Shown here: piece after piece, positions 535 through 62,400 of the stretch
Numbering within the stretch: the stretch's first letter is position 1
Layout of the letters: each line of letters opens with the position of its first letter
Source of the DNA: Haliotis asinina
Lineage: Eukaryota > Mollusca > Gastropoda > Lepetellida > Haliotidae
NCBI RefSeq assembly: GCF_037392515.1
Contig: NC_090281.1
Span: 1,242,501 to 1,306,500, forward strand
DNA: 64,000 nt
Direction: 5' to 3'
Position numbers and translations under genes: made by a program
The notes under the pieces: generated by a model
Told to the model about the DNA's origin: nothing
Database searches by the model: none
The model's input: only the letters and a program-made list of their open reading frames with translations

Positions 535-3500
535 GTAAGTTCCCGGATGTAATGCTGGCATGGCGAGACATCCACAGCACCTACACGGCAGCTGCCCAGT
601 CAGTGGGTCTCATCTTAACTGTCGTGATGGTTCATTCTGATTCGCAGATTGAAACGTGAGGGTACACCAACAACTCCGCATAGAACTGATCTGTGGAATC
701 AGAACAAATTGTTTACAAATCAGTGAATAATGAACAAAATATAATGACTGCGCAAGAGTTCGAAAACTATTTTGCAATACACGTACAATGGTTTCAATTT
801 GTGTCACCAGCAGTCTCAGACCGTATTACAAGACGGAGAACTCCGGCAAATATTCTGTGTCACGGTTGAATATTCCGTGTCACTGTTGAATGCGCTATGG
901 CGGAGAATGGGACACAGTGAAGGTCATTGCCTACGCAATCAGATTGTTGCCACCTACAATATGCAGAGACACGACCAGGATACATCCTGATACAAAACAC
1001 ATATAAACCGCTGTCTACGAGCCTAACATGTAGACCATGTTGTTTTCCTAGGACGGCCTCAACATCACCTCTGATGCTGATTACACCCTCAACAGTTTCT
1101 GTCAGTGGCAGGAAAAGTTTAACCCTCATGACGACACAGATCCCCGTCACGTGGACGCCGCAAGCCTCATGACAAGGTGAGCTAATTCCCCCAATCATGA
1201 CAAGGTGAGCTAATTCCCCCAATCATGACAAGGTCAGCTAATCCCCCCAATCATGATAATCATGACAATCATGACGTCCTTGTCCTCTCCCTGACAGGAT
1301 CATGGGACATGAATACACCTTGTACTCTTACTGCAATGTGTACCGATACAAATAAGTTACCGTAAGCACTCATGTACGGTAATTATCACGATGAGCCTCA
1401 CTCGGTACGTGTGTACTTAGTCTATTTAATATCAAGAAAGATGTGTCATTCGGTTGCACAACGGCCTGTGTTCACTCTATGTATATGTCTATCACGGGGT
1501 CAATAAAGACTGTTTCAAGGAGAACCTGGTGCACAAAAGTGTGACGGGATCGGTATCAACACTGATTGTTTCAGGGGGAACGTCGTCCAAAAGGGGGTGA
1601 GGGGGTCAATATAAACAATGACTGTTTCAGGGAGAACCTCGTCCACAAGGGAGTGACGGAAACCACAGGTCTGGCGTCCTTGGGGGGAATATGTGTCAAG
1701 GACATGAGGTGCTCAGTGCTCGAGGACAACGGCCTTGACATTGGTCTCACCTTGGCCCACGAGACAGGTCACAGGTACAAAAAGTGTTTTACAGCTAAAT
1801 ATTTGACCTTTCCATGCTTCATGATATTTAATCATGGGGATGTTATTTAGCCACGTAGTATCATAACGTTATCCTAGGCTAGCTAATGTCATTGTTGTTA
1901 TAGCTGTAGGTGTGGTCTGCCTGTACAATTGTTGGCTCATGCCCTGGCGGACACAAGTCTGAACATAACATACTGATTGAGGAGGGAGGGTGGACAGAGT
2001 ACCCGTATAACGCCCCCTGTCTTACAGTTTGAACATGCAGCATGACAGCGAGGGCAATATCTGCGACGACAAGACCAACATCATGTCGACAGGTGGAGGA
2101 GGGGGGGCACCTGCGTTCAAGTGGTCCTCCTGTAGTAGAGACGCCCTCTTCAACTTTCTCTAGTGAGTCTATGCAATACCTGTATATAACTGTCACATGT
2201 TGACGTATCTTAATGTTTCATTTATTTGACGGTTTCTCCACATTCACCAACAGACAGAAGGTAATCATGTTTATCAATGTGTGTGCTTGGTATATATGTG
2301 CCGAATGCACAAACGGGAAAAGTGTGTCATTCAGTGTTTGTTTTTAGAAGTTACCATAGCATCAGATGGAACACTGGAAAAATGTTTGCCTGAAAATCTT
2401 TCTAAATATGCATATCCACAGAATGTACGTAGATATAGTCATTCAGTGAAAGGTGGATGAGAGTTGCAAGCAGATCATAATACCAAGTCTGTTTTTGTAG
2501 CGAAGGTAAGGGAGCCTGTCTACTGGACTCGCCTTCGGCAGTCGGCATTCCCCTTCCCAAAGATCTACCAGGAGTTATCTACCCTGGTGACAAACAGTGC
2601 GAGTTGTTCCTGGGTCAAGGGTCAAAGATCTGTGAGGGAACGTCACTGGTAGATGACTTTGGCGGGGTAAGAGGCAGCGTGTTGTGTAAACTGCACCAGT
2701 CGAAGCTATTTAAACTATCATGACGAGACGCTTTTCTGTAAAGTAACTGTAATTCTCACCGATTTTTCAAAGACAAATTGTAGCAATCACATGTCATTAA
2801 GCAAAATTATACAAAAGTATGAATAGTTTGAATGTTTTACGTCAGATAAATCACTAAAATCTACCGATTCCTTTTTCGATTCGTTGAGTCTTCTCCTGGC
2901 ATGAATCCATTCTTGTGACTTCCCTATTACCTTTATCGGTAATCCAGAGGGTGGGAAACCAGGGATTGACAAGATGAGGATTAATCGATGAACATCAGTG
3001 ATGACACACTGTTATTGGGCTAGTATACAGAAGTTATGGTATGGCCGATCCGCAGCTATTATCCAGTTATGATTGTCTGTTACAGGACGAGTGCAGCAAG
3101 CTCGTCTGTTTTGATCCGAATCTACCTGGACAATGTTCCGGCAGCCAGGCACCAAGAATGGACGGCACGGAGTGCGGGCACAGAAGGGTAGGCATCCGTA
3201 ACAGACAGAATAGACACCAGTCGCAGACAAGTAGGCATCAGTCAGAGAGGTGCTTGATTCTTGTGGAATTGAATGAATGTCACCAGTTACCAGTTCAAGG
3301 TAGATCTCAATTATGTGTTACAGGTTATGACGGGTTTTCCCTGTCAGCAGCGTTCCGATAGTCGTCACCTTATGATGGGCCGCTATTTGATCTTGACTCC
3401 TTAGACGTCGCGCCTTGTAAGCTGACCGGTGTCCTCACTGTATCGTCCTATCATTTCAGTGGTGCATCAGAGGCCGATGCACGGACATAGGGCCTGATGG

Positions 3501-6500
3501 ACCGCCACCCCGAGACGGGGGATGGTCAGAGTGGGATGCTGAATGGTCGGTATGTTCCCGCACGTGCGGGGGCGGAGTCAGGGTGAAGACGAGGAAATGT
3601 GACAGGCCCAGGTCAGTACAGGAGCGAATAATGATGTTTGGACGCGGTTAGGGTTAACACAAGTGGATATGACAGATGGTTGAACGGGTTGTGTCATGAA
3701 GGGGGTGAATAAAGCTAGAAACAGACCAAGGTAAGGATGGGCAAAGACGTGCCTGGCGATTAGTAAGCGAAAATGCCTCCAAATATTGTTAATTTGTGAT
3801 GTAATATAGTTTTTAATTTAAGTTGTTATAAGGTTAACATTTTCTTTCATTTTTTATTTTCATATTTATCTAGACCTCTGTTCGGGGGAAAGACATGCGA
3901 AGGGACTGATGCTAAAGCGAAGCTCTGCAACGTTGAGGTGAGAACACTTTGAGCGTCCTTTACAAGCTGTGTCAATGAGTAATGTATTCTACACAGTGCG
4001 GTGTACTGATAGTAATTCAATGAAAAAAATGTTTTAGGAGAAGGAAAACACATTCCACAGAAAATATGTTGCTGTGTTAGGATGTAAAACAAAACAACAT
4101 GGTGGTGTGTTAACTCGCCTTTCCTCCAGCCCTGCAGCACTAGCCAGTATCGCTACAAGGAGGAGCAGTGTGCTGCCACTGACGTCTACCCCGTGGACGG
4201 GCGTCGCTTCCATTGGCTGCCAGGATATACTGTAGGTAAGGTTGCTGTTGTTGACGGGCGACGCTTCCACTGATTGGCAGGGTATCCACTTGTTGTCATT
4301 GATAATTTAGGTAAGGTAACTGTTGTCGACGTGTAAGGTATCCACTGGTTGTCGGGGATACTCAAGGTAAGGATACTGTTGTAAATGGACGAGGTATCTA
4401 CTTGTTGCAAGGGGATACTGTAGGTAAGGTAACTGTTGTCGACGAGCGAGGCCTTCACTGGTTGTCAGGTGATACTGTATGTAAGGGTACTCTTATCGAC
4501 GAGCGACGCCTCCACTGGCTGTCAGGTGATACTGTAGGTGAGGTGACTATAGTCGATGGAGGATACTTCCACTGGTTGTCAGGTGATACTGTATGTAAGG
4601 GTACTCTTATCGACGAGCGACGCTTCCACTTGCTGTCATGGGATACTGTAGGTGAGGTGACTATAGTCGATGGAGGATACTTCCACTGGTTGCCAGGGGA
4701 TACTTTAGATAAGGTTACTCTTGTCGACGGGCGACGCTTCCACCGGTTGTCATCGGATACTGTAGATAAGGTTACTGTTGTCGACCTACGACGCCTCTAG
4801 TAGTAGGCAGCAGATACAGTAGGTAAGGTTGCTGTTGTCGACCTACGACGCCTCTAGTAGTAGGCAGCAGATACAGTAGGTAAGGTTGCTGTTGTCGACC
4901 TACGACGCCTCTAGTAGTAGGCAGCAGGTACAGTAGGTAAGGTTACTGTTGTCGATGGGCGAGGTATGCTCTGGTTGATAGAGGATACTTTAGGTAAGGT
5001 AACTGTTGTCGACGAGCTAGGTCTCCACTGGTTGCCAGGGGATACTGTAGGTAAAGGTACTGTTGTCGACGGGCGAGGTATCCGTGTTTGTCATCGGATA
5101 CTTTAGGTAAGGTAACTGTTGTCGACTGGCGAGGCCTCCACTAGTTGTCAGGGGATACTGTATGTAAGGTGAGGACTCAGCTGGTTGTCAGGGGATACTT
5201 TAGGTAAGGTAACTGTTGTCGACGGGCGAGGTATGCCCTGGTTGCCAAAGGATGCTTTAGGTAAGGTAACTGTTGTCGACGGGCGAGGTATCCACTAGTT
5301 CTCAGGGAATACTTTAGGCAAGGTAACTGTTGCCGACGTGCAAGGTATCCACTAGTTCTCAGGGAATACTTTAGGTACGGTAACTGTTGTCAACGGGCGA
5401 GGCCTCCACTGGTTGTCAGAAGTATCCTATAGGGTTTATGGCCTGTGAGCGTTCTTGTTATGGAAGAACCTGGATATTCTGGGCGTTCAAGAAGTCTTGG
5501 ACAATTCGCGGTGTGTGAGGCCTTGCGTTGTCATGCTAGAGGTGCTGAGGTGTTCCCAGCGGAGAAATGGTATTGCCACGAGCTGAAGAATGTTATCTCT
5601 ATGTCACTGAGTCTCCACATATCACGACCAACTGTGTTGCTGCCTCCCACAAATATCTCCCCACACTATCACACCGAAGGGTGCTCGTTTTGGATGAAGT
5701 CCGACGCTGGTCTTTCTCCCCCTGCAACGGTATACTCGCATCCGACCATCATTATGGGACGTGCCAGATCGACTTTCGTCTGGAAACAACACTCGCTACA
5801 AATCTCGTACCAGCCACCGACGTACAGTCTTTAACCACTGTATCCGCCGACGGCGATGTTTCTGGGTCAATGTAGACGTCATAACACGGTACGTTGACCG
5901 ATGACATGTTCTAGAGCCTTTGCTGCTATTTCCGTTGCTGGGAAACCCGGTTGTGCAGATGAAGAGTACACAGATGGCGTGTTCGGTCGTCACACGCCAT
6001 ATGTCTGATCAGCATGCCCATCTAAGATGTGTGCATTTTCATATTGAAATACTTTAACAGAAAACAGAAAAAAAATGTGTTAGCTTTCTTTGGTCCATGT
6101 GTTTAGTTCCCTTATGTCAGCGGTCTTGTGTGTGGACAGGTGACAGCGTGTGTATGCTGTACTGCAGTCCGGTTGGGGACGAAACCATCCACCTGAGGGG
6201 GGTCGGGATGAGCACTGACTACAAGGATGGTACAGAGTGTGACTCTGATGCCCGTGGCACCTACAACCGATGTGTGTTGGGGAAGTGCAGGGTAAGTGTT
6301 TGTGCGTTTGTGGTTTTGTATAGGGAGATGGAATCCAGTTTTGCTACTTGACAGGACCACAAAGACGTGAAGTAACATGTGTGCATACATCCCATGTTCC
6401 ACGGTCTCCCTGTATTGTACGATGCCACAATGATATTTTGCATATATAATATATGTATAATGTTCTTCCACCTTAACGCTCCGCAGTCGTCTGGCATTCT

Positions 6501-9500
6501 ATAGCGTGTTCAACTTATCCGTCCCCGCACATCCGTTCAGTCATTCAAACTGACCTTAATTTTAAGTATTTAGTGCTGTTAGTTTTTTCACCATTCTTTA
6601 TGTGTGTACAAGTATGTTCAAGTAGCTGACATTTGGTGCGGACCTGGTGATATGTTTAGCTTCCTGTGTGTAGCTCCATATGTGTTCACAAAGTTAGCCA
6701 GTGCAGGTTGACCAGAAATTGTTTTATTGTAGTTAAAAGGTCACACTGTAAGCATGTGTACATGGAATAGTTATTGACAGTCTGGAAGATTTTGAACGTG
6801 ATGGAGCACAGCCTACAATGTCGGGAGGAAAATGTCTGACAGGAATTAAATGCATAAAATTAAATGAATAAGCGCCTTGGTGTGTTCTACTACGTGTTGT
6901 GTTGGGGTAACGAAATTAATCTTTGGTTTTTCTGAGGTTTCTGGTTGTTTTTGTTGTTTTCCAATCTGGATCATGCAGTTCCAAATATTGAGCCACATAC
7001 ATCATTTCTCCTCCATGTATAATTGAATGATAAGGATCTCCTTTCCCTTCACACTAGAGTATGTAAATCGTGTCTATTTATGGGCATCTGGCACATAAAA
7101 TTTGAATTGTGGGTTATTCATGATGAAAACCAAAAAGGGAGCGGATTCCGGTGAAATGTCACTGTCATCGGTCCACAGATACACGAAGTTAGATTGGTCA
7201 TTCATACAGATATCCATAGATCTTTCCGGTTTCCCATGAGACATAAATGTGTGAGTAAAGTTTAGTTTGTCCAATATGTGATGTATGGCACAATGGAAAA
7301 TAGACATATATGTCACAACGTTCCAAAACAGCATGACAAAAACTGTAATATCAAAGGGAAATTCACTTATTTTAATCTTTGTTCAATGTGGTCTCCATTC
7401 TTTTCCACAACTTTCTTTCACGCTGAAATCCTTTTACATATTTCTTCTTCTGATATCTCCTCCCATGACATAATTATCGTGCCTTTTAACACCCGCGTGG
7501 TCAATTTGTCTGTCACTCTTCAATAAACTTTCTCCTTTTGAGAGTCCCATATGGCATTGCATTTATTGGCAACTGACAATACTCGCATGATCATGTGTGT
7601 CTGGTTCAGTTAGGTCACGTCCAAACTGCAACCCCAGACAGCATGTTATAATCCATTGTGCTATTTCTTGCATTTCGACCTTATACATGTACCTAGTTTA
7701 ATACATGCATGGCTGATCTCTGTACACACTTAAGATTTCTGTTCTGTGTGCAAGGCGTTTGGGTGTGATGGAGTCAGCGACACCACCGCACGTCTCGACA
7801 TCTGTGGCATCTGCAGCGGCAGCAACAACACCTGTGAGAAGAAGACGGGGAGTTTCTTCCGAGGGGAGGAAAAAAGTGAGTTGGGCGATCGCACATCCTT
7901 GACTTTTTGTGTTAGAGACGTCAGACCTGCATCTCAACAAATCATTACAGGTCAATTAAATTTCAAGAAATGGAACAGAAGTTGCAGTAGTCTTCCAGTA
8001 CAGATCAAACCATAGTTAATGGTCTGTTTCAGGCTACGTGACGTTTCTGACAATTCCTAGAGGGTCAACAGGAATCAAGATGACCAACGACAACCGTTAC
8101 ACCTGGATGAGTGAGTGGTACTTGTAGCATCAAATGCCTCAGTCGAAGAGACTGAAAAGGCAAATATCAGGCAGTGATTACCGATTTCTGAAGGTTTCCG
8201 TTCTGCCTTTTCCAGCAGGTGCACTTGTCACCTATTTCTGCATGTTTTCATCTTTATTGTTCCCGCAGGTATACGTGTGAATGGCCGACGTCTGTTCAAC
8301 ACAAACGGACGCCAAAAGGACAAGAAAGACGCATACAGCAGGGAGGGTGTTAAAGTGTTGTATGCCCCGTACGGCCCTGAGAGTATCCAGATCCAAGGAC
8401 CAGTTCCCATGCAGCTTGAGGCACAGGTACCAGATGTGTCAGGTCATGCACAGCTGCAGGACCTGGCACTTGATGAATTGTCCCACTTCACGTACAGCTG
8501 TAGTACTGGGGACATAATTAATTACTTCACTTCTTACTACAGCTCTAGGATACAGCCCCTTATTAATTGTCTCACTTCCTGTAAGCTGTATGACCGGGTA
8601 CGTTATCAATTCTCTCACTTCCCATACAGCTGTAGAACACGGCACTTTAGTGATTGTATTTTTTCCCGTTCATTGGGAACCGGGCATTACACTAACTGTC
8701 TCACTTCCCGTACAGCTCTAGGAACGGGCCCAGCCGTCTTGTATTGTCATCACCAGAGTAATGATGGTAAATGTGCTTGAAGCTGTTTCATCATAACACC
8801 AGGACACCGCACACAACACCATCCATCACAACACCAATCCACAGCACAGTCCACCCTATGCACTATGTCAAAACAACACCCACTTACCACACCAACAACC
8901 ATTAACTATAGCATCCACCACAACACTCTTCCTCCACACAACACAACGACCGCAGCCTATCACAAGCCCACTACATCATGTACAGGTTTACCGGCTCTTT
9001 GGCTACACCTACTCTGACGTCAACCCAGAGATCTACTACGAGTTCTACCAGCCCCTGTCTACTCCCCTGCAATACACGTGGACGATCCAGGAGGGACCTT
9101 GCAGCACCACTTGTGGACACGGTATGTCACGGGGAAGGACGGACCGAGCGACCGACGGACTGTTGATGAAAAGACGCCTATTCTGACACCAACAGGTGAT
9201 GAAAGAAAGACCTAGGTTTTGAAGTCTTCATGCTGGCACCCTATCACCCTACTTGCGTTTTTCTCTGTCTCTCAGTCTAAGTAAACTACATCCTCAGTAC
9301 TTTTCGTTACACTCCACTACTGAGTCTAACAAAACCTTAGGGGAGGTTGCGTCAGGTAACCTTTGAGATTGACCAATCAGAACACAGCTTACCAAACCGC
9401 AAAAGTGGACATTCGCACATACCTTTCGAACATTTTATCTCAAAAAGGTTCGTACCCGAACGATTCCGAATGCTATTTTGCTCGGAACGCTCGCTTCCGA

Positions 9501-12500
9501 GTGATGCACACGCCGTACGTACAACCATGACAACGGTGAGTACACAGTCGCTACAAATAGTGTTTTTGACAATATTCAAGGACGTCATCTTGCGGAAATA
9601 TTAGCTAATGGAAACCATGTCAACAGAAAACCCAAAGCGTATATAATGCAGGTCAAATAACTGTGTTATATGCGGTTTTTTGTTAATGAAGAAATCTGTG
9701 TCAGTGACCTGAATATTTTGAAAGCCCCTCCGATCCCTAGATAGTAGCCGTTGTCTGTTTGGTTAAATCTATTTAACCGTCTCGCGTTTGATTGGACGGT
9801 CATTGTTCGCTCAAAGGTTACCTGACGCGACCTTCTACTAGGTTTTGTTAGACTCAGTGGTGGAGTGTAACGAAATACACTGAGACTAAGTTTACTTACT
9901 TATCTGTACAACATTATAAGACTGTGTTTGTCACTTTGTATATGGCAACCTGTGACAATATACGACTGTATTTCCAGTGTACCTATCTGTTTCGGACAGC
10001 ATGTGGCCGTTCATGGATTCTACTGTATGTTGCTGTGTTTATTTGTATGGGGGCGCGCGGTGAGCGAGCTGTCTAAAGCGCTAGGCTAGAGATCCAACGA
10101 GGTTAAGGTGTCAGGATCGACCCTACCTATGACCGGGTGTAAAAACCTTGGAGTCAGCTTCGTGTGCAGACTCTTTCCGTTTTCTCACAACCCCCCACTG
10201 TACAGTACACGCACCTGTGCGTTCAAAAGAACCCACGAATTCGTTTCTATATGACCAGATGGTGGGCACGTTTATAGGTGCAAACACCTTGTTGAGGGTA
10301 CAGCAACGTGCAGTTAACTTGGTCAAAGTACTTTGACTAATCTTCTACCCAGCTCTGAATTAGGTAGCTAGCTAGGATGAGAGAGCCACAAAAAACTCGG
10401 TGCACCTGTGTACTCCCCTGGGAGTTGAAACTGACAATACGGTGTGACGCTGAGACATCCAATGATCGTGGGAACAAGTACCAGAGCCTCGAACAAGCAC
10501 TAGTTGCATGGATCTGTGTGCTATATAAATATCCTATAATATGTGGCTGCATATGACTGTATATCTGACGGTATATGTGACTGTGTATCATCGAGGGTGT
10601 ATCTGGCGGTGTATGTGAGTACATCTGTCGGTGCATATGGTCCTGTATATCTGACGGTATATGTGACTGTGTGTCATCGAGGGTGTATCTGGCGGTGTAT
10701 GTGAGTATATCTCTCGGTGCATATGGTCCTGTATATCTGACGGTGTATGTGAGTATATCTGTCGGAGCACATGGCTCTGTATATCTGACGGTGTATGTGA
10801 CTGTGTATCATCGAGAGTGTTTCTGGCGGTGTACGTGAGTATATCTGTCGGTGCATATGGCTCTGTATATCTGACGGTGTATGTGACTGTGTATCATCGA
10901 GGGTGTATCTGGCGGTGTATGTGAGTATATCTGTCGGAGCATATGGCTCTGTATATCTGACGGTGTATGTGACTGTGTATCATCGAGGGTGTATCTGGCG
11001 GTGTATGTGAGTATATCTGTCGGTGCATATGACTCTGTATATCTGACGGTGTATGTGACTGTGTATCATCGAGGGTGTATCTGGCGGTGTATGTGAGTAT
11101 ATCTGTCGGTGCATATGGCTCTGTATATCTGATGGTGTATGTGACTGTGTATCATCGAGGGTGTATCTGACGGTGTACGTGAGTATATCTGTCGGTGCAT
11201 ATGGCTCTGTATATCTGACGGTGTATGTGACTGTGTATCATCGAGGGTGTATCTGACGGTGTACGTGAGTATATCTCTCGCTGCATATGATCCTGTATAT
11301 CTGACGGTGCATATGGCTCTGTATATCTGACGGTGTATGTGACTGTGTATCATCGAGGGTGTATCTGGCGGTGTATGTGAGTATATCTGTCGGTGCATAT
11401 GACTCTGTATATCTGATGGTGTACGTTACGTTGCCCAGGCTCCAGACCGGTTGAAGCTGTGTGTGTGCGGGTCGACGGCGGGGCCAGGGTGGCGAAAAGC
11501 AACTGTGACGAGGGGTCGAAGCCTGACACCAAGCCGAGAGTCTGTCAGCAGCCGCCGTGCCCACCCAGGTCGGTGTAGTGTGAAGACATACGTAGACCAC
11601 GTGAAACAAATAAACACGAAATGTGTACAACCCTTAATACTTTCACGCAGAGGGGAACTGTAGCATACGACACATACAGAACTCATAAAGAACATGTGGA
11701 GAACACTTACAGACGTGGAGAATGAAAAGGGCATTTGCAGAACACATGAAGACGTGTTGAATACGCACTTGGCATTTGGCAGAACACAAGAGTATATCAG
11801 AAGTCTATGTAGCGTGTAGATTGGCATTATCGGGGACATTAATACACACAACGCCTATGTAGTGTGATAGAGGACATCAATACACACGACGTCTATGTAG
11901 TGTGTAGATTATCATTATTGAGGAGATCAATACACACGACGTCTATGTAGTGTGTAGATTGACATTATAGAGGACACCAATACACATGACGTCTATGTAG
12001 TGTGTAGATTGACATTATAAGGGACATCAATACACACGACGTCTATGTAGTGTGTAATTTGACATTATAGTGGACATCAATACACACGCCGTCTATGTAG
12101 TGTGTAGATTGACATTATAAGGGACATCGATCAATACACACGACGTCTATGTAGTGTGTAGATTGACATTATAGAGGACATGAATACACATGACGTCTAT
12201 GTAGTGTGTAGATTGTCATTATAAGGGACATCGAATAAATACACACGACGTCTATGTAGTGTGTAGATTGACATTATAGAGGACATCAATACACACGCCG
12301 TCTATGTAGTGTGTAGATTGACATTATAGAGGACATCAATACACACGCCGTCTATGTAGTGTGTAGATTGACATTATAGAGGACATCAATACACATGACG
12401 TCTATGTAGTGTGTAGACTGACATTATAGAGGACATCAATACACACGACGTCTATGTAGTGTGTAGATTGTCATCATAGAGGACATCAATACACACGCCG

Positions 12501-15500
12501 TCTATGTAGTGTGTAGATTGACATTATAGAGGACATCAATACACACTCCGTCTATGTAGTGTGTAGATTGACATTATAGAGGACATCAATACACATGACG
12601 TCTATGTAGTGTGTAGACTGACGTTATAGAGGAGATCAATACACACGCCGTCTATGTAGTGTGTAGATTGACATTATAGAGGACATCAACACACACGCCG
12701 TCTATGTAGTGTGTAGATTGACATTATAGAGGACATCAATACACACGCCGTCTATGTAGTGTGTAGATTGACATTATAGAGGACATCAATACACATGACG
12801 TCTATGTAGTGTGTAGATTGATATTATAAGGGACATCGAATAAATACACACGACGTCTATGTAGTGTGTAGATTGACATTATAGAGGACATCAATACACA
12901 CGCCGTCTATGTAGTGTGTAGATTGACATTATAGAGGACATCAATACACACGCCGTCTATGTAGTGTGTAGATTGACATTATAGAGGACATCAATACACA
13001 TGACGTCTATGTAGTGTGTAGATTGACATCATAGAGGACATCAATACACATGACGTCTATGTAGTGTGTAGACTGACATTATAGAGGACATCAATACACA
13101 CTCCGTCTATGTAGTGTGTAGATTGTCATTATAGAGGACATCAATACACATGACGTCTATGTAGTGTGTAGACTGACATTATAGAGGACATCAATACACA
13201 CGACGTCTATGTAGTGTGTAGACTGACATTATAGAGGACATCAATACACACGAAGTCTATGTAGTGTGTAGATTGACATTATAGAGGACATCAATACACA
13301 CTCCGTCTATGTAGTGTGTAGATTGACATTATAGAGGAGATCAATACACACGCCGTCTATGTAGTGTGTAGATTGTCATTATAGAGGAGATCAATACACA
13401 CACCGTCTATGTAGTGTGTAGATTGTCATCATAGAGGACATCAATACACACGCCGTCTATGTAGTGTGTAGATTGACATTATAGAGGAGATCAATACACA
13501 CGCCGTCTATGTAGTGTGTAGATTGTCATTATAGAGGACATCAATACACACGCCGTCTATGTAGTGTGTAGATTGACATTATAGAGGAGATCAATACACA
13601 CACCGTCTATGTAGTGTGTAGATTGACATTATAGAGGACATCAATACACACGACGTCTATGTAGTGTGTAGATTGACATTATAGAGGACATCAATACACA
13701 CGCCGTCTATGTAGTGTGTAGATTGACATTATAGAGGACATCAATACACACGCCGTCTATGTAGTGTGTAGACTGACGTTATAGAGGACATCAATACACA
13801 CTCCGTCTATGTAGTGTGTAGACTGACGTTATAGAGGACACCAATACACATGACGTCTATGTAGTGTGTAGATTGTCATTATAGAGGACATCAATACACA
13901 CGACGTCTATGTAGTGTATAGATTGTCATTATAGAGGACATCAATACACACGCCGTCTATGTAGTGTGTAGATTGACATTATAAGGGACATCGATCAATA
14001 CACACGCCGTCTATGTAGTGTGTAGATTGACATTATAGAGGACATCAATACACACGCCGTCTATGTAGTGTGTAGACTGACGTTATAGAGGACATCAATA
14101 CACACGACGTCTATGTAGTGTATAGATTGTCATTATAGAGGACATCAATACACACGCCGTCTATGTAGTGTGTAGATTGACATTATAAGGTACATCGATC
14201 AATACACACGACGTCTATGTAGTGTGTAGATTCACATTATAGAGGAGATCAATACACACGCCGTCTATGTAGTGTGAAGATTGTCATTAAAGAGGACATC
14301 AATACACACGCCGTCTGTGTAGTGTGTAGATTGTCATTATAGAGGACATCAATACACACGCCATCTATGTAGTGTGTAGATTGACATTATAGAGGACATC
14401 AATACACACGCCGTCTATGTAGTGTGTAGACTGACATTACAGAGGACATCGATCAATACACACGACGTCTATGTAGTGTGTAGATTGACATTATAGAGGA
14501 GATCAATACACACGCCGTCTATGTAGTGTGTAGATTGTCATTATAGAGGAGATCAATACACACGCCGTCTGTGTAGTGTGTAGATTGTCATTATAGAGGA
14601 CATCAATACACACGCCGTCTATGTAGTGTGTAGATTGACATTATAGAGGACATCAATACACATTCCGTCTATGTGGTGTGTAGATTGACATTATAGAGGA
14701 GATCAATACACACGCCGTCTATGTAGTGTGTAGATTGTCATTATAGAGGACATCAATACACACGACGTCTATGTAGTGTATAGATTGTCATTATAGAGGA
14801 CATCAATACACACGCCGTCTATGTAGTGTGTAGATTGACATTATAAGGGACATCGATCAATACACACGCCGTCTATGTAGTGTGTAGATTGTCATTATAG
14901 AGGACATCAATACACACGCCGTCTATGTAGTGTGTAGATTGACATTATAGAGGAGATCAATACACACGCCGTCTATGTAGTGTGTAGATTGTCATTATAG
15001 AGGACATCAATATACACGCCGTCTATGTAGTGTGTAGATTGACATTATAGAGGACATCAATACACACTCCGTCTATGTAGTGTGTAGATTGACATTATAG
15101 AGGACATCAATACACACGCCGTCTATGTAGTGTGTAGATTGACAATATAGAGGACATCAATACACACTCCGTCTATGTAGTGTGTAGATCGATATTATAG
15201 AGGACATCAATACACACGCCGTCTATGTAGTGTGTAGACTGACGTTATAGAGTACATCAATACACATGACGTCTATGTAGTGTGTAGATTGACATTATAG
15301 AGGACACCAATACACATGACGTCTATGTAGTGTGTAGATTGACATTATAAGGTACATCGATCAATACACACGACGTCTATGTAGTGTGTAGATTGACATT
15401 ATAGAGGAGATCAATACACACGCCGTCTATGTAGTGTGTAGATTGTCATTATAGAGGACATCAATACACACTCCGTCTATGTAGTGTGTAGACTGACATT

Positions 15501-43049: not shown

Positions 43050-43143
<94 letters not shown>

Positions 43144-49100: not shown

Positions 49101-52100
49101 TGTCGGTGTACTCACATCTAAGTCCGGTAGAAGTAACATCGTTAGTGTACTCGCGTCTAAGTCTGACAACAGTAATATCGTCGGTGTACTCAGGTCTAAG
49201 TCTGGCAGCAGTCAAATCGTCGGTGTACTCACATCTACGTCTGATAGAAGTAACATCGTTAGTGTACTCACGTCTAAGTTTGGCAGCAGTCACATCGTTA
49301 GTGTACTCGCGTCTAACTATAGGAGCAGTCACATCGTCGGTGTACTCACATCTTAGTCTGGCAGCAGTAACATCGTCGTTGTACTCACATCTAAGTATAG
49401 GAGCAGTAACAGCGTCGGTGTACTCACATCTTATCCTGGCAGCAGTAACATCGTCGGTATACTCACATCTAGGCCTGGTAACCGTAACATCGTCGGTGTA
49501 CTCACGTCTTGTTCTGTTAGTGGCACAGAGGCCGCAGTACTTCCTACAGTTGTCCATGGCCCATTGTCGGTAGTCCGAGCAGACCTGTTGCCCGTACACA
49601 GCGCAGTTGTCCAGGTGGTCCGTGCAATGGGGAACTACACCACACAGACAACACACATAAAGCTAGCACTGCCAGAACGCCGTCACTATCTGTGACACAT
49701 TTTGGAATGTGACATATCTCCCGTAAACCGATATCGTTACACTAGACAAAAATATTTGAGATCGTTACACTGGACAAAAATATTTGATATTGTTACACTA
49801 GACAAAAATATTTGATATCATGAATTGTTAAGATGTTTTAGAAACAGGCCTACCACCACACGTAATCTAAACAGACCTTGGCCGAATGCCATTGAACAGG
49901 ACACCCTCACCGGTTGTCACAGAAACAGACCCGTCACCAAAAGAAATCAAGCAGAAAGTCTTGACAACTCGAGCAAGAGACCCACAACCTTCTGTGAAGA
50001 ATGACATGAGAACCAACACCAGGTGTCATGACAACTTAGGCAAGAGACCCACAACCTTGTGTAATGGTAGGGAACAGTCAAGAAGTCCTTGGAATCATCA
50101 GTGCCCTACCGTCGGTTGGCATTGTATCCACGCATAGGCCACAGAAGCTCGGGCAGTGTTGCCACGCCCAGTCAGGGTATTTGTTGCAAACGTCAGTCCC
50201 GTAGCCGGGGCAGTCGGTGTTGTCCCTGCAGGCGGAGGCAACTTGCGCTGTACCTAGATGGCGAGGAAGGGATAGTACATGTTAATTCCAAACGGTTACA
50301 TGACAAGAAGGTTTGGTGCAGTTGTATGTAAGAGAGTCTGATGCCGAAATAAAATGCCAGAAACAGCAGTTTGTACTGAGAAGTATGCATATGTTCGGTA
50401 GGAATTGTTGTAAAAAATACACAACTGGAGTAATTCGCACAAACTGTTTGACTTTTTCTTCTGAGTAAATGTCAAACGTGTAAAAGTTAAACGCTGACGG
50501 ACAAACGAAGAATGGATGTTCTCCTAGGTCACCTAAAATGAATTGTTTGCAGAATGTAATATGAATGTTGCAAAAACAGCATGAATGTTTGTTTAATTGT
50601 ACTGGAGATAACTTCTACTTTTGGATCTATAGCCAAAATAATCCTCCAACAATATTCCATTCTTCCGTTCCCCACCTTACAGTGTTATTGAGTAACGGGT
50701 CTTTGATAGAAACACCGACCTTCACCTCCGCAGATCCCGCAGTATTTTGGGCAGTTCTTTGCTGCCCAAGGTCTGTAGTCTGTACACACACTCTCACCGT
50801 ACATAGCGCACGTTAGCGTATCTGTACAGAAACCGTCAGTAGACGTCCGGGTTGCCGGGGTTGTCTTGGTGATGCCTGAACACCGAACATTATGCGTTTA
50901 GGCAGGATGAGTTCCCGTGGCTTTACGAAATATAATAATCATATCATGGCGGGCTGGGGACTCCAAGACACATTATTCACATTTTACCCGTATGAGGAAT
51001 CGCCCCAGGAACTGCAGAGCGAGGAACAACAGTTGTTGTTGACGATGTTGTTGAATTACTCACCATCCTGTGACGCACTTGTTCCTGGTGTGCTTGACGC
51101 GGTGGATGCAGAGGATCGTGAAGTACCTGTCCTGGTCGTGGTGGTGTCAGAGGCGGTGACGTCATCACCACAATACCGGCAGAATCGCGGACAGTTCGTC
51201 TTGGACCAGCTGACCCAACCGGTGCAGACACTCCGGTCAAACGCCTGACAGTTCTCTGTGTCACGACACGTGGTGGAGGAGGAGGACACAGTGGCCGTGG
51301 TGGAGGTGTGTGAACCTGACACAGAAATGACAACTGTCATAGGCTGCGTGTGGGAGATCTGTGTCCGTACACACTTCACACATCAGACAGGAACAACTGT
51401 GACGTCTACCGATTACGACGTGCACCAAATGCGACGTATAGCGACTGTGACGTCTACCAACTGTGGGTCTACCAACAGTGACGTCTACCCATTGTGACGT
51501 ATACCAGCTGTGACGTCTACCAACTCTGACGTCTACCCACTGTGTCGTATACCAAACGGTGCCGTTCAACAAGACCCTCGCAGCTGTTCAACATAAACTG
51601 ACAGGCAAAAGAAAGTACACAAGGTTTTCAAAAGGTCATTAGCATTGACCTAGAGTTCTTAGACACACAAACTATAATTTAGTGGTGTTAACATCTTTAC
51701 TGAATCTGAGCTAAAAATCACACACATACTACAGATACACGTGGCGTCAGACAAATTCACTGAGGGCCCTTGTTACGAGTGTGTATTTTCGGCATATTTT
51801 GTTATTAATTAAGTAATCATTATTATTATTACCTGAACTTTCGGGAAATGACTGAGTATATATATAAAGGCTAGTTTCCGTGTTGAGATGGGGGGGCACA
51901 CATACACATTACTGGAGCATCATCATCAATCTCTGCCAACGTTTGATCTACATTAACGGTTGTCAGACCGATCGTTGTGTTACATTCTGCATGACTTTCT
52001 CTCTCGCACTAAGACTTTGGTGAGTTTGCTATATCATATTTTGTGGCCCATTGCCTTATATTTTGTCTCTTGTATTGTATTTGAAATCAGTGTTGTGAAA

Positions 52101-53404
52101 TTGACTTATGACCTAGTATAACTTGCTCTCTTTACCAAATAATAATAATAATATTTGAATGTTGTTTTTTTACTTGTTCTGTTACTTTGTTCTGTTTTTC
52201 TGGTTCACGGAGGGTTTCTTACATCGTTTGTCACGACAAATTCTTAACCGTAACACCCTGAAAAAACAGTTTTCAATCACATAGCGGTACTGACTTTCAC
52301 ACAGTAAATATTCACTACCATCACTTTATTAACCGCTATGTCCATCACTTGAATGAATACAGGCACGCAGTCCCCTTCTGTCTGAAGACTCCAAATGTCG
52401 GACAAGGTCACGTGGTATGCGACGCCATTCATAGTGGAGGGCCTGTGCAAGATTATGTCTATTCTGTGGTGAGCTTCTTTCAAACTGCATGTGTAGTCTG
52501 TCCACCCACTAACTGTTATACCCTGAGTACCCAGTTTACCACTTCGACGTTTTATTCACGACGAGCACTTTATTAATTTCAGTGCAGGTATCAAATTATT
52601 ACTTTGTTGCGACGTGTTTCAGTGTATAATTTACCAACAAAAGTATTTCTTTCAAATTTGAGAAATGGTAACTGTGGGTATACTTTCTTTTTGCCGGTCA
52701 GTTTATATCATATGAGTGATCACTTCATTTAGCCTAGTGATCTGCACGTACTTTCTTTACCTGTACACACGTCACAGAAGTGCGCGCAGTTGAGCGCTGA
52801 CCAGTCTTGATACTCCGTACATATCTCCTTCCCGTAGGTGGAGCAGTCGGATGTCGTGTCCACGCACGTGGAGACAGAGGTCGTAGTGACAACATCGCTG
52901 ACACCACTACCGACTACCGACTGGGTGCAGAACTTGCATGACTTCCTGCAGTTGACGCGACTCCAGTCCTCGTATTCGCTGCAGATGTTGCTGGCATAGA
53001 TGCTGCAGTCCTTGACATCCTCACAGACTCCATTACAGATGCCGCAGAACTTCCGACAGTTGGTCTGATGGCAAGTACAGCATGATTAATTCAGAACTGC
53101 AGCACCAGTAGCGAGCCTAGAGATGTGAGGCCACGGGAACTCTGGCGGTTAGTAGAGAGTAATGTCCCAGTAACTCTCCACGGAGAGCTAACGGGGATGA
53201 TACCCTACTTAATCAAACTACACTCAAAGTATTGGTTTGGTAATTTGATAAGCCAGATGTAAGACAAAGGGTACGAACTATCAAGGTCTTACAACTGAAA
53301 CTCGAACACATAGCTCCATCCTAGAAAAATATTGGAGCGAGCACACAATGGAATGACGTCACAAGTGTAATCTAACGCCCCCCCCCCCAACCCCCCGCCC
53401 TCCC

Positions 53405-53456
<52 letters not shown>

Positions 53457-56400
53457 GATTGCCTGCAATGATGCTAAACTGAACCCTATTCACACTGTAT
53501 CTATCCTCCTCGCGACTTACCTTACTCCACGCCAGGTAGTTGCGGCACACGTCACTGCCATACAGCACGCAGTCAACAGCATCGTCGCAGTCGAGGTCGC
53601 CGTTTGTGGTGTTGTTCCCTGTAAACGAAATTGCGATAAACACTGCACGAGTCAATGAATTGTCCCGATTATTTGCCGGCCTTCTTCACGAACTTAAATA
53701 TTGTCAATTACTGCATTAAAGAATAAACATAACTGCTCTCATATATAGACCGTAGGTGTTCTTACTTTATTTACCCCATAACGTATCCCGTGACCGCCCC
53801 CCTTTCATCCTCGATATCTCCAGGGTACACGTTCCGATAAGTCTCCACTATACCCTGGACGCATCTACGGCTCTGCCCGATAAATTTATTACCTCCCTTC
53901 GCTGGCTCCGCCTTCTCACAGTAGCCAATCAGCTAGGCCGCCGTTATAACTGATCTTGCCAGTGTCAACAAAGGCAGCGGTCGCAACTGCGAAGGTTTGC
54001 CCACAGTGCGTCCCAGATTTTAGGGAAATCATACTAACAAACTGACAGGTCCGAAACTTTAAAACAACATATGCGAGAACGCCTTCTACCTCTTCCAGAT
54101 AACCTCTGCATGGTTTCTGTTGCCAAGTATAATCGGTTAGATAATTCAAAAAACGAAAGTGAGTTGTGATTGGTTCGCTCAACTTCCCAGCGTAGACACC
54201 TGACTGGATGAAAAGACAGTCAAAGGAGGTAATAAATTTATCTGGCAGAGCCGTAGATGCGTCCAGGGTGTAGTGGAGACTTATCGGAACGTATACCCTG
54301 GAGATATCGAGGATGCCCCCCTTTGAGCACCACAGTTGTTTAGGTCTCAAACACTTCGTTAACTTCACGTCAGCTATAACAACCGAGTGAAAATGGCGGC
54401 TATTTAGTAACATATTTGTATTACACATCTTCGAAACATTATTTTTAAGATTTTCATGTTTCTAGTTACTATGGTTACCATGGCTACAGGTGTTGGAGCA
54501 AAAGCCACAATAGGCAGCACAATTAGTTTTGGACCATGCCTCGTACGTGTGGCAGATGTACGTCCCGTAAGCCGCGCAGTTGAGGGCGTTCTTGCAGCTG
54601 TCACCACAGCCTGTGGATACGAAAAGACAGGTGAGGTGAAGTCATGTTTAACATCGCGTTCAAGGTTAGTGTACGTGCGTGCGCGTACATGCATGCGTGT
54701 GTGTGTGCGTGCGTGTGTGTATTGTAGTTGTGCTGAGTAATGGTGGTTTCCTAGTGCTCACCAGCCAGGACCGAGAACCAAACCACCGGCATTCCAGTCT
54801 ATGGCATTCCAGACTTTGCGTGCTGGTGATTAGGTGCCTTAAAAAAGTACTAAGATTTGTACTTTACTAAGACGTTTAATCCCAAATATAACATATGTAA
54901 CATTTCAGATGTTCAACTGATTAATGATGTGTCTGTTCACGTGCAGTACTGCCTCAGACGCTGACACAAGCCTGACGTAAGGTTACGGATGTCGTTTTCT
55001 TAAACACAGATTTCAGATCATGCACGTGATTTTGACAACCATTTCATATAGGTAATAAACAGAACCTACTGCTTCCTCCCGTACACGCCCCCTCCATACA
55101 ATCCTTCTGTTCTGTTGGTTTCTGGACGGGGAGACAGTGGCTGGATTCAATCTCCTTCATGGAGTCACCATCTTTGTAACACGTGACCTTCCGCGTCTTC
55201 AGACCACGACCACACGTCTGTGAACACTAGCCAGACACAAAGCAGTGTCAACAGAAGGACAAACACACAGTATAAACAGGAAGGCGATACAGACGTCTCC
55301 AGAGAAGACTTCAGGAACAGAGACATCGGTGACACCAGACATAAATCGCAATTGTGAACCCCGCCAAGACCTCATATGTGTTGCGTGTATTTCTGCTTTG
55401 TGAGCTACCAAGGTTAAACTATATCAAAGAATCAATAGGTTTCATTAAAAAAACAAACTTCATAGACAACTGAGAACAGTGTAGATTATTTACAAGGTGA
55501 CCAAAACACAAGACTACCAGGTGCTGACAGATGTACTGACATTACTGTACCCACACAGATGTACTGACATAACTGTACCCACACAGATGTACTGACATTA
55601 CTGTATCCACACAGATGTACTGACATTACTGTACCCACACAGATGTACTGACATCACTGTACACACACAGATATACTGATATTACTGTACACACACAGAT
55701 GTACTGACATTAATGTAATCAGACAGATTTACTGGCATTACTGTACCCACACAGATGTAATGCCAGTACAGTAACCTGACAGATATACTGACATTACTGT
55801 AACCTGGCATATGCAGTGACAATATTGTAATCTGGCAAATGTGCTGACATTACTGTACTCTCACAGATGTACTGACATTACTGTACATTCACAGATGTAC
55901 TGATGTTACTGTACCCAGACAGATGTACTGACATTGCTTTATCAAGACAGATGTACTGGCATTGTCATAGAAACAACTGACGTACACTTGACCAGGATCC
56001 GGGTCTCCACACTCCTGGACATGACTCCGGGTTACACTCGCTCGCCTCGGCTGGTTTGACCAGCCTTGCACAGTTGCTGTGGGCCAACACCTCCACCACC
56101 CCTGACGTCTCTCTCACACACTGGACAGTCCGCTTCATCAGCCCCCCACCACAGGTGAGGGAACACGCAGAGTACGCCCCAGCCTTCCACCTGAAAATAA
56201 CATCATATCTCGCTCATTGTGGCCGCAGCTGTTATGGTGGTCAATGGTTGGGCAGGTGGTGTTGTGGTCAGTGGTTGGATAGTTGTTCTGGTGGCCAGTG
56301 ATGGGACAGGTGTTGTGGGGATTAATGGTTGGGCAGGTGTTGTGGTGGTCGATGGTGGGGCAGGTGTTGTGGTGGTCAATGGTGGGACAGGTGTTGTGGT

Positions 56401-59400
56401 GGTCAATGGTGAGGCAGGTGTTGTGGTGGTCAATGGTGAGGCAGGTGTTGTGGTGGTCGATGGTGGGACAGGCGTTGTAGTGATGGCTCACCTGGCTGGG
56501 CAGGATCCAGTGTTACAGGGTTCAGGGACGACATGCGGGCGACTGTTGACGTTGCAGTGATCATCATCCACAACAGAGAAGTCGTCGTCTCTAACACATG
56601 TCACCGCGTTCATCCGGGTTCCTGTCAGTATGATTCGTTCAGTAGGATTCAGTAATCAGTGATATCGTATCTGCATGACTTTAAACACGAGTCATATTTT
56701 GTTACACATCCTAATCCTACCCTAGCAGGTGTTGACGTACCTGTGTCTGACTTCACTAACCAGGTGTGGACACGCATGTACTATATGCCTGACTAAACAA
56801 GCCAGGTGACGACATACCTGTGTCTGACTACACTAACCAGGTGTGGACACGCATGTACTATATGCCTGACTAAATCAGCTAGTTGATGACGTACCTGTGT
56901 CACATTACTGACTACACTAACCAAGTTATGACGTACCTGTCTCACGTGATTACACTTACCCGGTGTTGATGTATGTATGCTACATGTCTAACTCCACTAA
57001 TCAAGTGTTGGTGTACCTGTATAACATATCTGTCCTCACCAACAAGGTGTTGACGTACCTGTGTCACAAACCTGACTGATGATAACTGTTAGTTAGTGTA
57101 ACATATCTAACTGCACCAGCCTGGTGATGACGTACCTGTGTCACAAATATGACCACATTAAGCATGTGATGATGTGACTGTGTCACATATCTGACCACAC
57201 TAACTAGGTGATGACGTACCTGTGCCACATGTCTGACTGCATTGACCAGCCTTGGTTTTCCACGTGAAGTTTGCTGGCTGTAGCGACGTCGTGGGAACGT
57301 AGTAGTCGTACGCCACACGTGCCATGACGTCAACGAAGCTGCTGAAACTGTCGCCCATGATCCTGTATACCTAAAACACATATACAGTATCTGTAATTTA
57401 CATACTCCCTCAACAATTGTGTGTAAATACATTTATACTGCTGTACACTAGGTCTGATGCACCTGTGCTTCCACATGTACTTCACGATCTGAAAATAGCG
57501 TACATGCGTTTCCACCTGTACACCACACTGGACCGGATGTACCTGTGCTTCCACCTGTACACCACACACTAGGCCTGACGTGCCTGTGCTTCTACCTGTA
57601 CACCATACACTACACCTGACGTACCTGTTTCCACCTGTACATCACACAGTAGACCTGACGTACCTATGTTTCCACCAGTACACCTCACTGGACCTGACGT
57701 ACCTGTTTCCACCAGTACACCACACATTAGACCTGGCGCACCTGTTTCCACCTATACCCCATACACTAGGTCTGATGCACCTGTGCTTCCACATGTACTT
57801 CACGATCTGAAAATAGCGTACATGCGTTTCCACCTGTACACCACACTGGACCGGATGTACCTGTGCTTCCACCTGTACACCACACACTAGGCCTGACGTG
57901 CCTGTGCTTCTACCTGTACACCATACACTACACCTGACGTACCTGTTTCCACCTGTACATCACACAGTAGACCTGACGTACCTATGTTTCCACCAGTACA
58001 CCTCACTGGACCTGACGTACCTGTTTCCACCAGTACACCACACATTAGACCTGGCGCACCTGTTTCCACCTATACCTCATACACTAGGTCTGATGCACCT
58101 GTGCTTCCACATGTACTTCACGATCTGAAAATAGCGTACATGCGTTTCCACCTGTACACCACACTGGACCGGATGTACCTGTGCTTCCACCTGTACACCA
58201 CACACTAGGCCTGACGTGCCTGTGCTTCTACCTGTACACCATACACTACACCTGACGTACCTGTTTCCACCTGTACATCACACAGTAGACCTGACGTACC
58301 TATGTTTCCACCAGTACACCTCACTGGACCTGACGTACCTGTTTCCACCAGTACACCACACATTAGACCTGGCGCACCTGTTTCCACCTATACCTCATAC
58401 ACTAGGTCTGATGCACCTGTGTTTCCACATGTATTTCACGATCTGAAAATGGCGTACATGCGTTTCCACCTGTACACCACACTGGACCGGATGTACCTGT
58501 GCTTCCATCCGTACACCACACACTAGACCTGACATGCCTGTGCTTCTACATGTACACCACACACTATTCCTGACGTATCTGTTTCCACCTGTACATCACA
58601 CTGGACTCGATGTGTCTGTGTCTCCACCTGTACACCACACACTAGACCTGATGTGTCTGTGTTTCCACCTGTACACCACACACTACACCTGACGTACCTG
58701 TTTCCACCTGTACATCACACTAAACCTGATGTACCTTTGCTTCCACTTGTACACCACACACTACACCTGACGTACCTGTTTCCACCTGTACATCACACTA
58801 AACCTGATGTACCTGTGCTTCCACCTGTACACCACACACTAGACCTGACTTACCTGTGTTTCCACATGTATATCACACTGGACCTGATGTACCTGTGTTT
58901 CCCCCTGTGACCACACTAGACCTGATGCACCTGCCTTTTCCCCTGCACACTACACTGGACTTAATGTACCTGTGCTTCCACCTATAAATCACACCGGACC
59001 TAATGTACCCTTGTCTCCACCTGTACAACACGCTAGACCTGATGTACCTGTGCTTCCACCTGTACAGCACACACTAGACCTTGCGTACCTGTTTCCACAT
59101 GTACATGACACTGGACCTGATGTACCTATGCTTCCATCTGTACATCACACACTGCACCTTGCGTACCTGTGCTTCTACCTGCACACCACACTGGACTTGA
59201 TGTACCTGTGCTTCCATCAGTACACCACATACTACACCTGACGTACCTGTTTCCACCTATACGCCACACAGTAAACCTGATGTGTCTGTGTTTCCACCTG
59301 AACACCACACACTACACCTGACGTACCTGTTTCCACCTGTATATCACACTGGACCTGATGTATTTGTGTTTTACCTGTACACCACACTCGACCTAACGCA

Positions 59401-62400
59401 CCTGTGCAACATATGTCATATTTGGGATTTCACTTTCTTAGTAAAGTACAAATTCTAGTACTTTTTTTCGGTTGAGTCCCATCCGGGATTCGAACCCGCA
59501 CCCTCAGAGTCAGGCACCTAATCGCCAGCACACAAAGTCAGCCGCCTAGCCCGCTCAGCCACCGCGACTTCCACAAAAATGAAAGTCGGACAACTGGTAG
59601 TCTAGACTGCGTACTTTGTGTACCCCTCTGATGAGTGTAAATTGGCACGGCTCCCACGGCCGAAAGCTATGATTACACGATGCCATTTAGAAAGTGGTCA
59701 AATGCAACATATGTCATATTTGGGATTTCACTTTCTTAGTAAAGTACAAATTCTAGTACTTTTTTTCGGTTGAGTCCCATCCGGGATTCGAACCCGCACC
59801 CTCAGAGTCAGGCACCTAATCGCCAGCACACAAAGTCAGCCGCCTAGCCCGCTCAGCCACCGCGACTTCCACAAAAATGAAAGTCGGACAACTGGTAGTC
59901 TAGATTGCGTACTTTGTGTACCCCTCTGATGAGTGTAAATTGGCACGGCTCCCACGGCCGAAAGCTATGATTACACGATGCCATTTAGAAAGTGGTCAAA
60001 TGCAACATATGTCATATTTGGGATTTCACTTTCTTAGTAAAGTACAAATTCTAGTACTTTTTTTCGGTTGAGTCCCATCCGGGATTCGAACCCGCACCCT
60101 CAGAGTCAGGCACCTAATCGCCAGCACACAAAGTCAGCCGCCTAGCCCGCTCAGCCACCGCGACTTCCACAAAAATGAAAGTCGGACAACTGGTAGTCTA
60201 GACTGCGTACTTTGTGTACCCCTCTGATGAGTGTAAATTGGCACGGCTCCCACGGCCGAAAGCTATGATTACACGATGCCATTTAGAAAGTGGTCAAATG
60301 CAACATATGTCATATTTGGGATTTCACTTTCTTAGTAAAGTACAAATTCTAGTACTTTTTTTCGGTTGAGTCCCATCCGGGATTCGAACCCGCACCCTCA
60401 GAGTCAGGCACCTAATCGCCAGCACACAAAGTCAGCCGCCTAGCCCGCTCAGCCACCGCGACTTCCACAAAAATGAAAGTCGGACAACTGGTAGTCTAGA
60501 CTGCGTACTTTGTGTACCCCTCTGATGATACTAAGAAAGTGAAATCCCAAATATGACATATGTTGCATTTGACCACTTTCTAAATGGCATCGTGTAATCA
60601 TAGCTTTCGGCCGTGGGAGCCGTGCCAATTTACACTCATCAGAGGGGTACACAAAGTACGCAGTCTAGACTACCAGTTGTCCGACTTTCATTTTTGTGGA
60701 AGTCGCGGTGGCTGAGCGGGCTAGGCGGCTGACTTTGTGTGCTGGCGATTAGGTGCCTGACTCTGAGGGTGCGGGTTCGAATCCCGGATGGGACTCAACC
60801 GAAAAAAAGTACTAGAATTTGTACTTTACTAAGAAAGTGAAATCCCAAATATGACATATGTTGCATTTGACCACTTTCTAAATGGCATCGTGTAATCATA
60901 GCTTTCGGCCGTGGGGGCCGTGCCAATTTACACTCATCAGAGGGGTACACAAAGTACGCAGTCTAGACTACCAGTTGTCCGACTTTCATTTTTGTGGAAG
61001 TTGCGGTGGCTGAGCGGGCTAGGCGGCTGACTTTGTGTGCTGGCGATTAGGTGCCTGACTCTGAGGGTGCGGGTTCGAATCCCGGATGGGACTCAACCGA
61101 AAAAAAGTACTAGAATTTGTACTTTACTAAGAAAGTGAAATCCCAAATATGACATATGTTGCATTTGACCACTTTCTAAATGGCATCGTGTAATCATAAC
61201 GCACCTGTGTTTTCCCCTGGACACCACATTGGACCTGATGTACCTGTGCTTCCACCTGTACACCACACTTGACCTGATCTATCTGTGCTTCCACTTGCAC
61301 AGCACAGACTACACCTGACGTATCTGTTTCTATCTGTACACTACCTGATGTACCTGTTTTTCCATCAGTACACCATACACTACACCTGACGTACCCATTT
61401 CCACCTGTACACCACACTGGACCTGACGTACCTGTTTCCACCAGTACACCACACACTAGGTCTGAAGCACCTGTGTTTCCACATGTACTTCACACACTAG
61501 AGCTGACGTACCTGTGCTTCCACCTGTACAGGCAGTGGTCCAGCGATGAGGATTTTCTCAGGCCGCGATCTGTACGCCACGAAGACACCGTCTTTGCTGT
61601 AGGTCCCTGACAGGTCGGGCGAATCACCAAACTTGCTGAACATCAGCTCTCCGTTCACCAGGATTGCTGGAGGGAGCAGAGATCAGTCAAAACCTCACAC
61701 TCAGTGACGTCACGCGTTGACACGTGCCATTCAGACGACTAACACCGACTCCTTGTTCATGTACGGGAGATAATTTCACCTGACAATTGCAGTAAAAAGC
61801 GATGTTTGCTTCCTGATAGAAAATGTTTCGGTGAGAGAACCGGGTAGAATCTATGACAATTCTGCTGTCTTTACCAGAATAGCATCGCCCAATCCGTCAA
61901 TCCCACCGCCTACGCCCCCCCCCCCCCCCCCCTATCCTCCCTCACACTACACCCACACCCACATATGGAGTGCCCCACGACTTACACATGTGGGTGAGGT
62001 AGTTCTTATTGATGATGCTGATGGATGTGGCGCCTTTGGGTAATGTGACAAAGGTGACATATTCTGGAATAAAAAACAAAATAATTATCTTGTCTCACAG
62101 CTTTAGCAAAGGAAACATTAACTGAACCGCGAGATAAACTTTCGTATCAATTACACCTACAGTCGGCAGGGGTAACTTACTGCTCTTCTTTCCTTGGTTG
62201 AACGTCCCCGTCCTCTTCACACACGTGTCGCCCTTCCCGTCACAAACCATACACCTGTCATACTGCCGTCCCGATTCGAGCTGACCGTCACAGCCAAACT
62301 CCTGGTGAACACAAACGTCACGGTGAAAATACGTCATACACGTGTCATACCACCGTCCTAACTCCACATGGCCGTCACAGCCAAACTCCTAGTGAACACA

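Follow-up and report, generated by a model that had tools for sequence, protein, structure and literature searches.

Why do so many minisatellites in two neighbouring genes of the mollusc Haliotis asinina contain the splice junction of the exon beside them? The window analysed here, a stretch of 64,000 nucleotides (nt) from an assembly of 1.14 Gb in 159 contigs (G000:C2:1242501-1306500), carries two convergent ADAMTS-like genes. An earlier reading of the sequence (hereafter the original prediction) had claimed nine junction-containing arrays or duplications in these genes, and had suggested a recurrent process acting at splice junctions, or selection keeping junction copies, for which no named phenomenon was known. 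The phenomenon does have a name, being described in amphioxus as 'mirages' in the excerpts drawn on here (PMC3087553, PMC3902484). We find that the Haliotis arrays are probably mirages as well, that is, minisatellites seeded by short tandem duplications in which the repeated unit lay, by chance, across an exon border.

The arrays were detected by an ungapped self-comparison, with a threshold that passed 0-1 matches in each of three shuffles, and by a junction test, in which 40 nt around each junction were aligned to its own intron and scored against shuffles (z). Low-complexity repeats were excluded from every cluster count. The self-comparison yielded 37 clusters, 10 of them reaching an exon (nine clearly and one, at exon 13, weakly, with 10 nt), and the junction test was bimodal, with 9 of the 72 junctions at z 11.2-22.8 and the remainder at 4.6 or below. 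All nine predicted cases exist, with the donors and acceptors as listed (Table 1). Tandem Repeats Finder (TRF) returned 68 rows for the window. A separate run of the junction comparison made the same nine junctions stand out. Two details of the original prediction needed amending: the exonic content per unit, put at 5-43 bases, measures 10-54 nt for the nine, and the end of exon D moves from 61524 to 61512 (CACAG/gtacgt), which raises the exonic part of its array from 6 nt to the value tabulated. Further junctions were too weak to be counted, namely the exon 6 donor (z 4.6 and 4.9), the exon 13 acceptor (3.3 and 2.8) and the exon R donor, for which no firm link between the neighbouring array and the junction emerged.

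Table 1. Junction-spanning arrays and host genes, in window coordinates; exonic nucleotides are those reached by the self-comparison clusters, corrected for exon D.
Feature	Position	Strand	Unit (bp)	Exonic nt	Copies	z	Remarks
Exon 2 donor mirage	1167..1259	+	28	10	3	18.9	AAG/gtgagc
Exon 3 acceptor mirage	1495..1659	+	56	29	~3	16.1	last copy is the real exon start
Exon 9 donor mirage	4193..5419	+	57	43	~21	11.2	
Exon 17 donor mirage	28695..29121	+	37	21	~12	13.0	
Exon S acceptor mirage	40593..40815	-	28	12	~8	15.3	
Exon O donor mirage	47397..49520	-	39	15	~54	12.4	
Exon E donor mirage	56726..57249	-	42	<=30		13.3	
Exon D donor mirage	57445..61529	-	39-40	18		16.2	interrupted by 298-bp repeat, 59405-61198
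Exon B acceptor duplication	62248..62405	-	87	54	2	22.8	missing from the TRF list
Array just inside exon R donor	41327..42177	-	40/79			3.5 and 4.9	weak likeness to junction, not counted
Gene 1, ADAMTS15-like metalloprotease	451..38817	+					spliced exons equal NCBI protein P0001
Gene 2, ADAMTS6-like, exons A-S of 31 modelled	40435..62754	-					identical to P0121 from residue 45

With the gene models completed from 60 kb of sequence flanking the window, arrays that include 6 or more exonic nt are found at 11 of the 108 junctions of the two genes, and z exceeds 8 at 10 of the 108; the eleventh, the exon 6 donor of gene 2, has z 7.5 and 21 exonic nt. Two of the 11 lie outside the window (L033). 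Donors outnumber acceptors by 8 to 3, which is not significant (P 0.23). Many copies, though not all, keep their splice dinucleotide: counting the true copy, GT is kept in 18 of 21 copies at exon 9, 51 of 54 at exon O and 9 of 12 at exon 17, and AG is kept in all 8 extra copies at exon S. The pattern also recurs beyond these genes. A 9.9-kb locus around a myosin gene on another contig (L035, at C4:0.33 Mb) was picked solely because a myosin search put it near a contig end; reading the sequence placed eight exons in it, which join into a single open frame (Myosin_head, E 5e-88). A spanning tandem copy occurs at 4 of its 14 junctions. Two are clear, the exon c donor (z 17.3, 41-bp unit, 23 exonic nt) and the exon e acceptor (z 14.2, 33 bp, 23 nt, with AG kept in 24 of 33 extra copies), and two are borderline, the exon d acceptor (z 9.2) and the exon b donor (z 8.5), with 5 exonic nt each.

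Comparison of the paralogues indicates that the arrays were added to existing introns. Exons 2 and 3 measure 125 and 144 nt in both genes and exon 17 and its counterpart H measure 157 nt, and since flanking exon lengths agree wherever they were compared, those introns predate the arrays; the introns of O and S, without a paralogous counterpart, fall outside this comparison. Correspondence was taken from exon lengths and protein alignment. Of the eight pairs in which a counterpart exists, seven bear out the prediction that the array is missing from the matched junction of the paralogue; the exception is the exon 2 donor, whose gene 2 counterpart, outside the window, carries a 20-bp array of its own. 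As the units of these two arrays are unrelated, the same junction was struck twice, independently, and the claim of independent events stands. In the gene 2 relatives of H. rubra and H. rufescens, no insertion is seen at the mirage junctions in an alignment judged by eye, and the exon chains, with the repeats left out, are identical to the NCBI protein models.

How such arrays might form can be outlined in three steps. At this locus local tandem duplication is very common, and the introns are short when the arrays are taken out. A duplication that straddles a junction would always leave a complete exon and junction in place, on the upstream side at a donor and on the downstream side at an acceptor; at a donor, the original exon and its site would stay upstream while a spare exon tail and donor come to lie in the intron. 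Because an intact exon with its junction survives, the event would pass purifying selection, provided that the exon-attached site is the one used. Logic and human precedent suggest that in that case the duplication would be near-neutral, whereas duplications within exons would be removed. Finally, slippage or unequal exchange, presumably also the source of the duplication itself, may enlarge the intron side and lengthen the intron, while coding constraint would hold the exon-attached copy. The number of cases would then be set mainly by geometry, that is, by unit length relative to ancestral intron length.

The protein models agree with use of the exon-attached site. Reading past the donor, a stop is met within 1-35 nt at exons 2, 9, D and E (four of the six donor arrays in the window; D was read from its uncorrected end), so that use of a later copy would often truncate the protein. 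The frame stays open for 335 nt at exon 17 and for 1133 nt at exon O.

Are junctions then hit more often than chance would have it? After removal of the arrays the introns have a median length of 336 bp, compared with 272 bp for the 26 array-free introns (the 298-bp repeat and units below 10 bp are left out of the intron-length analysis). With collapsed introns this short, an array confined to its own intron will often touch a border. We therefore used a strict null in which each array is placed at random within its own collapsed intron. Against 11 observed crossings it predicts 5.6 (38 arrays, P 0.011) when the 298-bp repeat and units below 12 bp are omitted, and 7.2 (41 arrays, P 0.06) when all are kept. 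We conclude that geometry explains about half or more of the cases. A looser null, in which arrays fall anywhere in the collapsed genes, gives expectations of 2.0-3.5 and P values from 4e-5 to 2e-3 over five settings (the weak exon 13 cluster is among its 10 observed crossings, and exon D was taken with its uncorrected end). It was not taken as the main figure, because the arrays sit in introns that are short after array removal, and conditioning on the introns gives P 0.01-0.06.

Since the window had been picked for the effect, sequence not so chosen matters more. In the gene parts before exon 1 or beyond exon A, 2 of 10 arrays cross a junction (expected 1.30, P 0.38), and at the contig C4 myosin 2 of 9 do so (expected 1.87, P 0.64), giving 4 of 19 against 3.2 expected in the pooled unselected sequence. 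With a 4-nt criterion the myosin count rises to 4 of 9 (expected 1.99, P 0.059). In eight predicted muscle myosin genes on contig C5, which comprise 498 predicted junctions and 59 kb of intron, arrays are scarce and true cases absent. Two of their five rows formally cross, and both are one CA-rich cluster, lying in two introns round a mispredicted 45-nt exon of gene m3; the other two clusters touching predicted exons, in m4 and m5, are also CA-rich, and none of these was therefore counted. If the two crossing rows are retained, all the sequence not picked for the effect has 6 crossings in 24 rows (expected 4.25, P 0.215). In these muscle myosin models, 217 of the 257 predicted exons match a list of recurring lengths, the others being less certain.

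Several observations weigh against chance straddling as the whole account. For the ADAMTS pair and the C4 myosin together, with the window included and the muscle myosins left out, an excess of 1.6- to 2.2-fold persists at all 18 threshold settings (P 0.0007-0.06; arrays omitted as for the 5.6 expected). The expectations also depend on ancestral intron lengths, which are our reconstruction: with present-day lengths the excess is larger (expected 2.1, P 2e-6), and with lengths capped at 1500-400 bp the expectation is 4.6-6.8 (P 0.003-0.055). Some arrays preserve their splice-site columns unusually well (Fisher combined P 0.026). Furthermore, splicing is deduced here from protein models rather than from RNA. 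A twofold excess at junctions is thus possible but not established.

With this in mind, one may speculate that junctions are favoured as minisatellite seeds, at about twice the chance rate, through an undeletable exonic anchor or a benefit to splicing, and so drive the expansion of introns wherever animal genomes are rich in arrays; this is a tentative possibility. A rival account, which we consider unlikely, is that arrays at junctions are not made more often but lost less often, as the coding copy can neither decay nor be deleted and keeps seeding. The leftover excess fits such persistence, and so does the array at exon O, where copies near the exon are divergent and distant ones nearly identical by eye, as if growing away from the anchor. 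However, the excess is not significant in the sequence not chosen for effect, and the exonic anchors go down to 6-10 nt.

A mutational process aimed at exon/intron junctions, for example through R-loops, pausing or breaks, is improbable. It would account for the homologous exon 2 donors struck in both paralogues and for introns struck at both ends, between exons 2 and 3 and between exons c and d of the C4 myosin (the d acceptor being borderline). But a process aimed at junctions should give a preferred offset of the unit, and what is observed is a uniform exonic share (Kolmogorov-Smirnov P 0.64, n=11; the 298-bp repeat and units below 10 bp omitted). The absence of true cases from the muscle myosin junctions and the strict null, which already predicts half or more of the cases, also speak against it. 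The process at junctions suggested by the original prediction is thus not demonstrated.

Selection for additional copies of the splice site, whether as decoys, to make splicing more efficient or to create variable in-frame tails (exon O), is quite doubtful. The splice-site columns were ranked in 9 of the 15 arrays; those of exons 2, 3 and B and of C4 myosin exon b, which have few copies, and the two outside the window were not included. The splice-site window ranks 1 of 57 for conservation at exon 9, 2 of 39 at O, 1 of 28 at S and 3 of 24 at C4 myosin exon d, and is tied first of 41 at exon c (10 ties), whereas it ranks low at exons 17 (30 of 37), D (36 of 41) and E (26 of 42) and at C4 myosin exon e (21 of 33). 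The suggestion that selection keeps junction copies therefore stays open for the first group, which carries the combined P, and finds nothing in the second; as a rule it is unsupported. The exon O array, whose 39-nt unit is three times 13, is open at window positions 48373-49505 on the minus strand as a 13-residue repeat, (C/R)EYTDDVTAxRxR, and an internal donor there would extend the protein in frame. We rejected this as evidence that the array is coding, because repeating a stop-free 39-nt unit opens the frame by itself; three motifs of the array were searched for in NCBI isoform X2 and none is present.

An assembly artefact is scarcely credible: arrays are hard to assemble, and an excerpt on amphioxus reports one mirage misassembled in a draft genome (PMC3087553), but copies differ among themselves in the arrays examined, although exact copy numbers are unproven, and the pattern is repeated on two contigs.

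Chance straddling, the reading we favour, is best set beside the known systems. According to the excerpts on amphioxus (PMC3087553, PMC3902484), mirages occur in Adh3, the globins BflGb6 and BflGb9 and troponin C, with PGBD5 compared, and consist of minisatellite-like copies across the exon-intron border, at a donor or an acceptor, many but not all of which keep GT/AG. They seem not to disturb splicing (PMC3087553). The Haliotis units likewise span 5' and 3' exon-intron boundaries, and many but not all copies keep AG/GT. Unlike the amphioxus cases, they occur in a mollusc, number 11 in two genes and reach ~54 copies in the largest array counted; they come from one assembly, with genes read from DNA. 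As far as seen, they extend the known mirages, unusually densely, to a mollusc, where two gene families, each on its own contig of the assembly, have them. Full-text searches of open-licence papers gave no report of mirages in molluscs among the matches listed, and the portion consulted of a C. elegans study of splicing and minisatellites within introns (PMC4039745) makes no mention of junction-spanning units.

In humans, excerpts on CBS (PMC2630376) describe a common 68-bp duplication of an intron/exon junction, 844ins68, in which the downstream site, the one joined to the remainder of the exon, is strongly favoured and normal mRNA results, and a 31-bp variable number tandem repeat, c.1444_1467+7, with 16-21 repeats, whose coordinates, as we read them, straddle the donor with 24 exonic and 7 intronic nt. 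CBS thus also has donor and acceptor variants but, unlike Haliotis, represents a single gene and a human polymorphism. Internal tandem repeats in human segmental duplications are also described, in an excerpt (PMC2812944), and the Rogers model, as cited in the amphioxus excerpt (PMC3087553), takes tandem AG/GT duplication as a route to new introns. That model shares tandem splice-signal repeats at exon borders, but in it the repeat gives rise to an intron or changes one, whereas in Haliotis the intron is already present and only lengthens; where the paralogue was compared, no new intron has appeared at a repeat. The genomic mechanism of mirages is called unclear in the amphioxus excerpts (PMC3087553, PMC3902484). 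Their origin now becomes countable genome-wide with a proper null, and they offer a route by which introns lengthen while the protein stays unharmed.

By exact spliced alignment, gene 1 has 25 exons, which together account for its entire protein and 19 of which lie inside the part of the window read for the original prediction, and gene 2 has 31. A protein search found gene 1 identical across the query to 'ADAMTS 15-like [Haliotis asinina]' and matched gene 2 to 'ADAMTS 6-like isoform X2' of the same species. The layout of gene 1, by eye, is metalloprotease, TSP1, spacer, TSP1 and a ShKT-like end, and Pfam finds Reprolysin, ADAMTS_CR_2 and TSP_1 in its first 323 residues here. Gene 2 shows a spacer, TSP1, ShKT-like repeats (by eye) and a CUB end; Pfam finds ADAMTS_spacer1 and TSP1_ADAMTS, and CUB PF00431 is listed for P0121.

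Other repeats share these introns. Intron 15 of gene 1 is mostly a 12.5-kb array of a 50-bp unit in ~248 copies (window 11867-24321), and a second giant array, with a 49-bp unit and ~14.8 kb long, fills an intron upstream (L034/L029). The 298-bp unit inside the exon D array forms two opposed tandem blocks and contains a tRNA-Thr-like gene (five by ARAGORN); no Rfam family matches this repeat at the gathering threshold. The last intron of gene 1 holds LTR-retrotransposon-like remains (window 32000-35700), reverse transcriptase- and integrase-like by eye. A gene 2 intron contains a Polinton/Maverick-like element (L030 1891-9201, minus strand) with Pfam integrase core and poxvirus A32-like ATPase domains; its long frame, to which Pfam gave no polymerase match, has by eye a YTDTDS motif that we take to be polymerase-like.

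The muscle myosin genes belong to a tandem cluster of muscle-type myosin heavy chains on both strands (G000:C5:73560001-73760000; L009-L028), with eight modelled and more matches beyond. Arrays make up 5% of the bases there, compared with 41% in the ADAMTS region (124 kb). The array-rich loci (C2 1.22-1.35 Mb and C4 0.33 Mb) are near contig ends, and the array-poor one (C5 73.6 Mb) is ~6 Mb from an end, in a sample of three loci.

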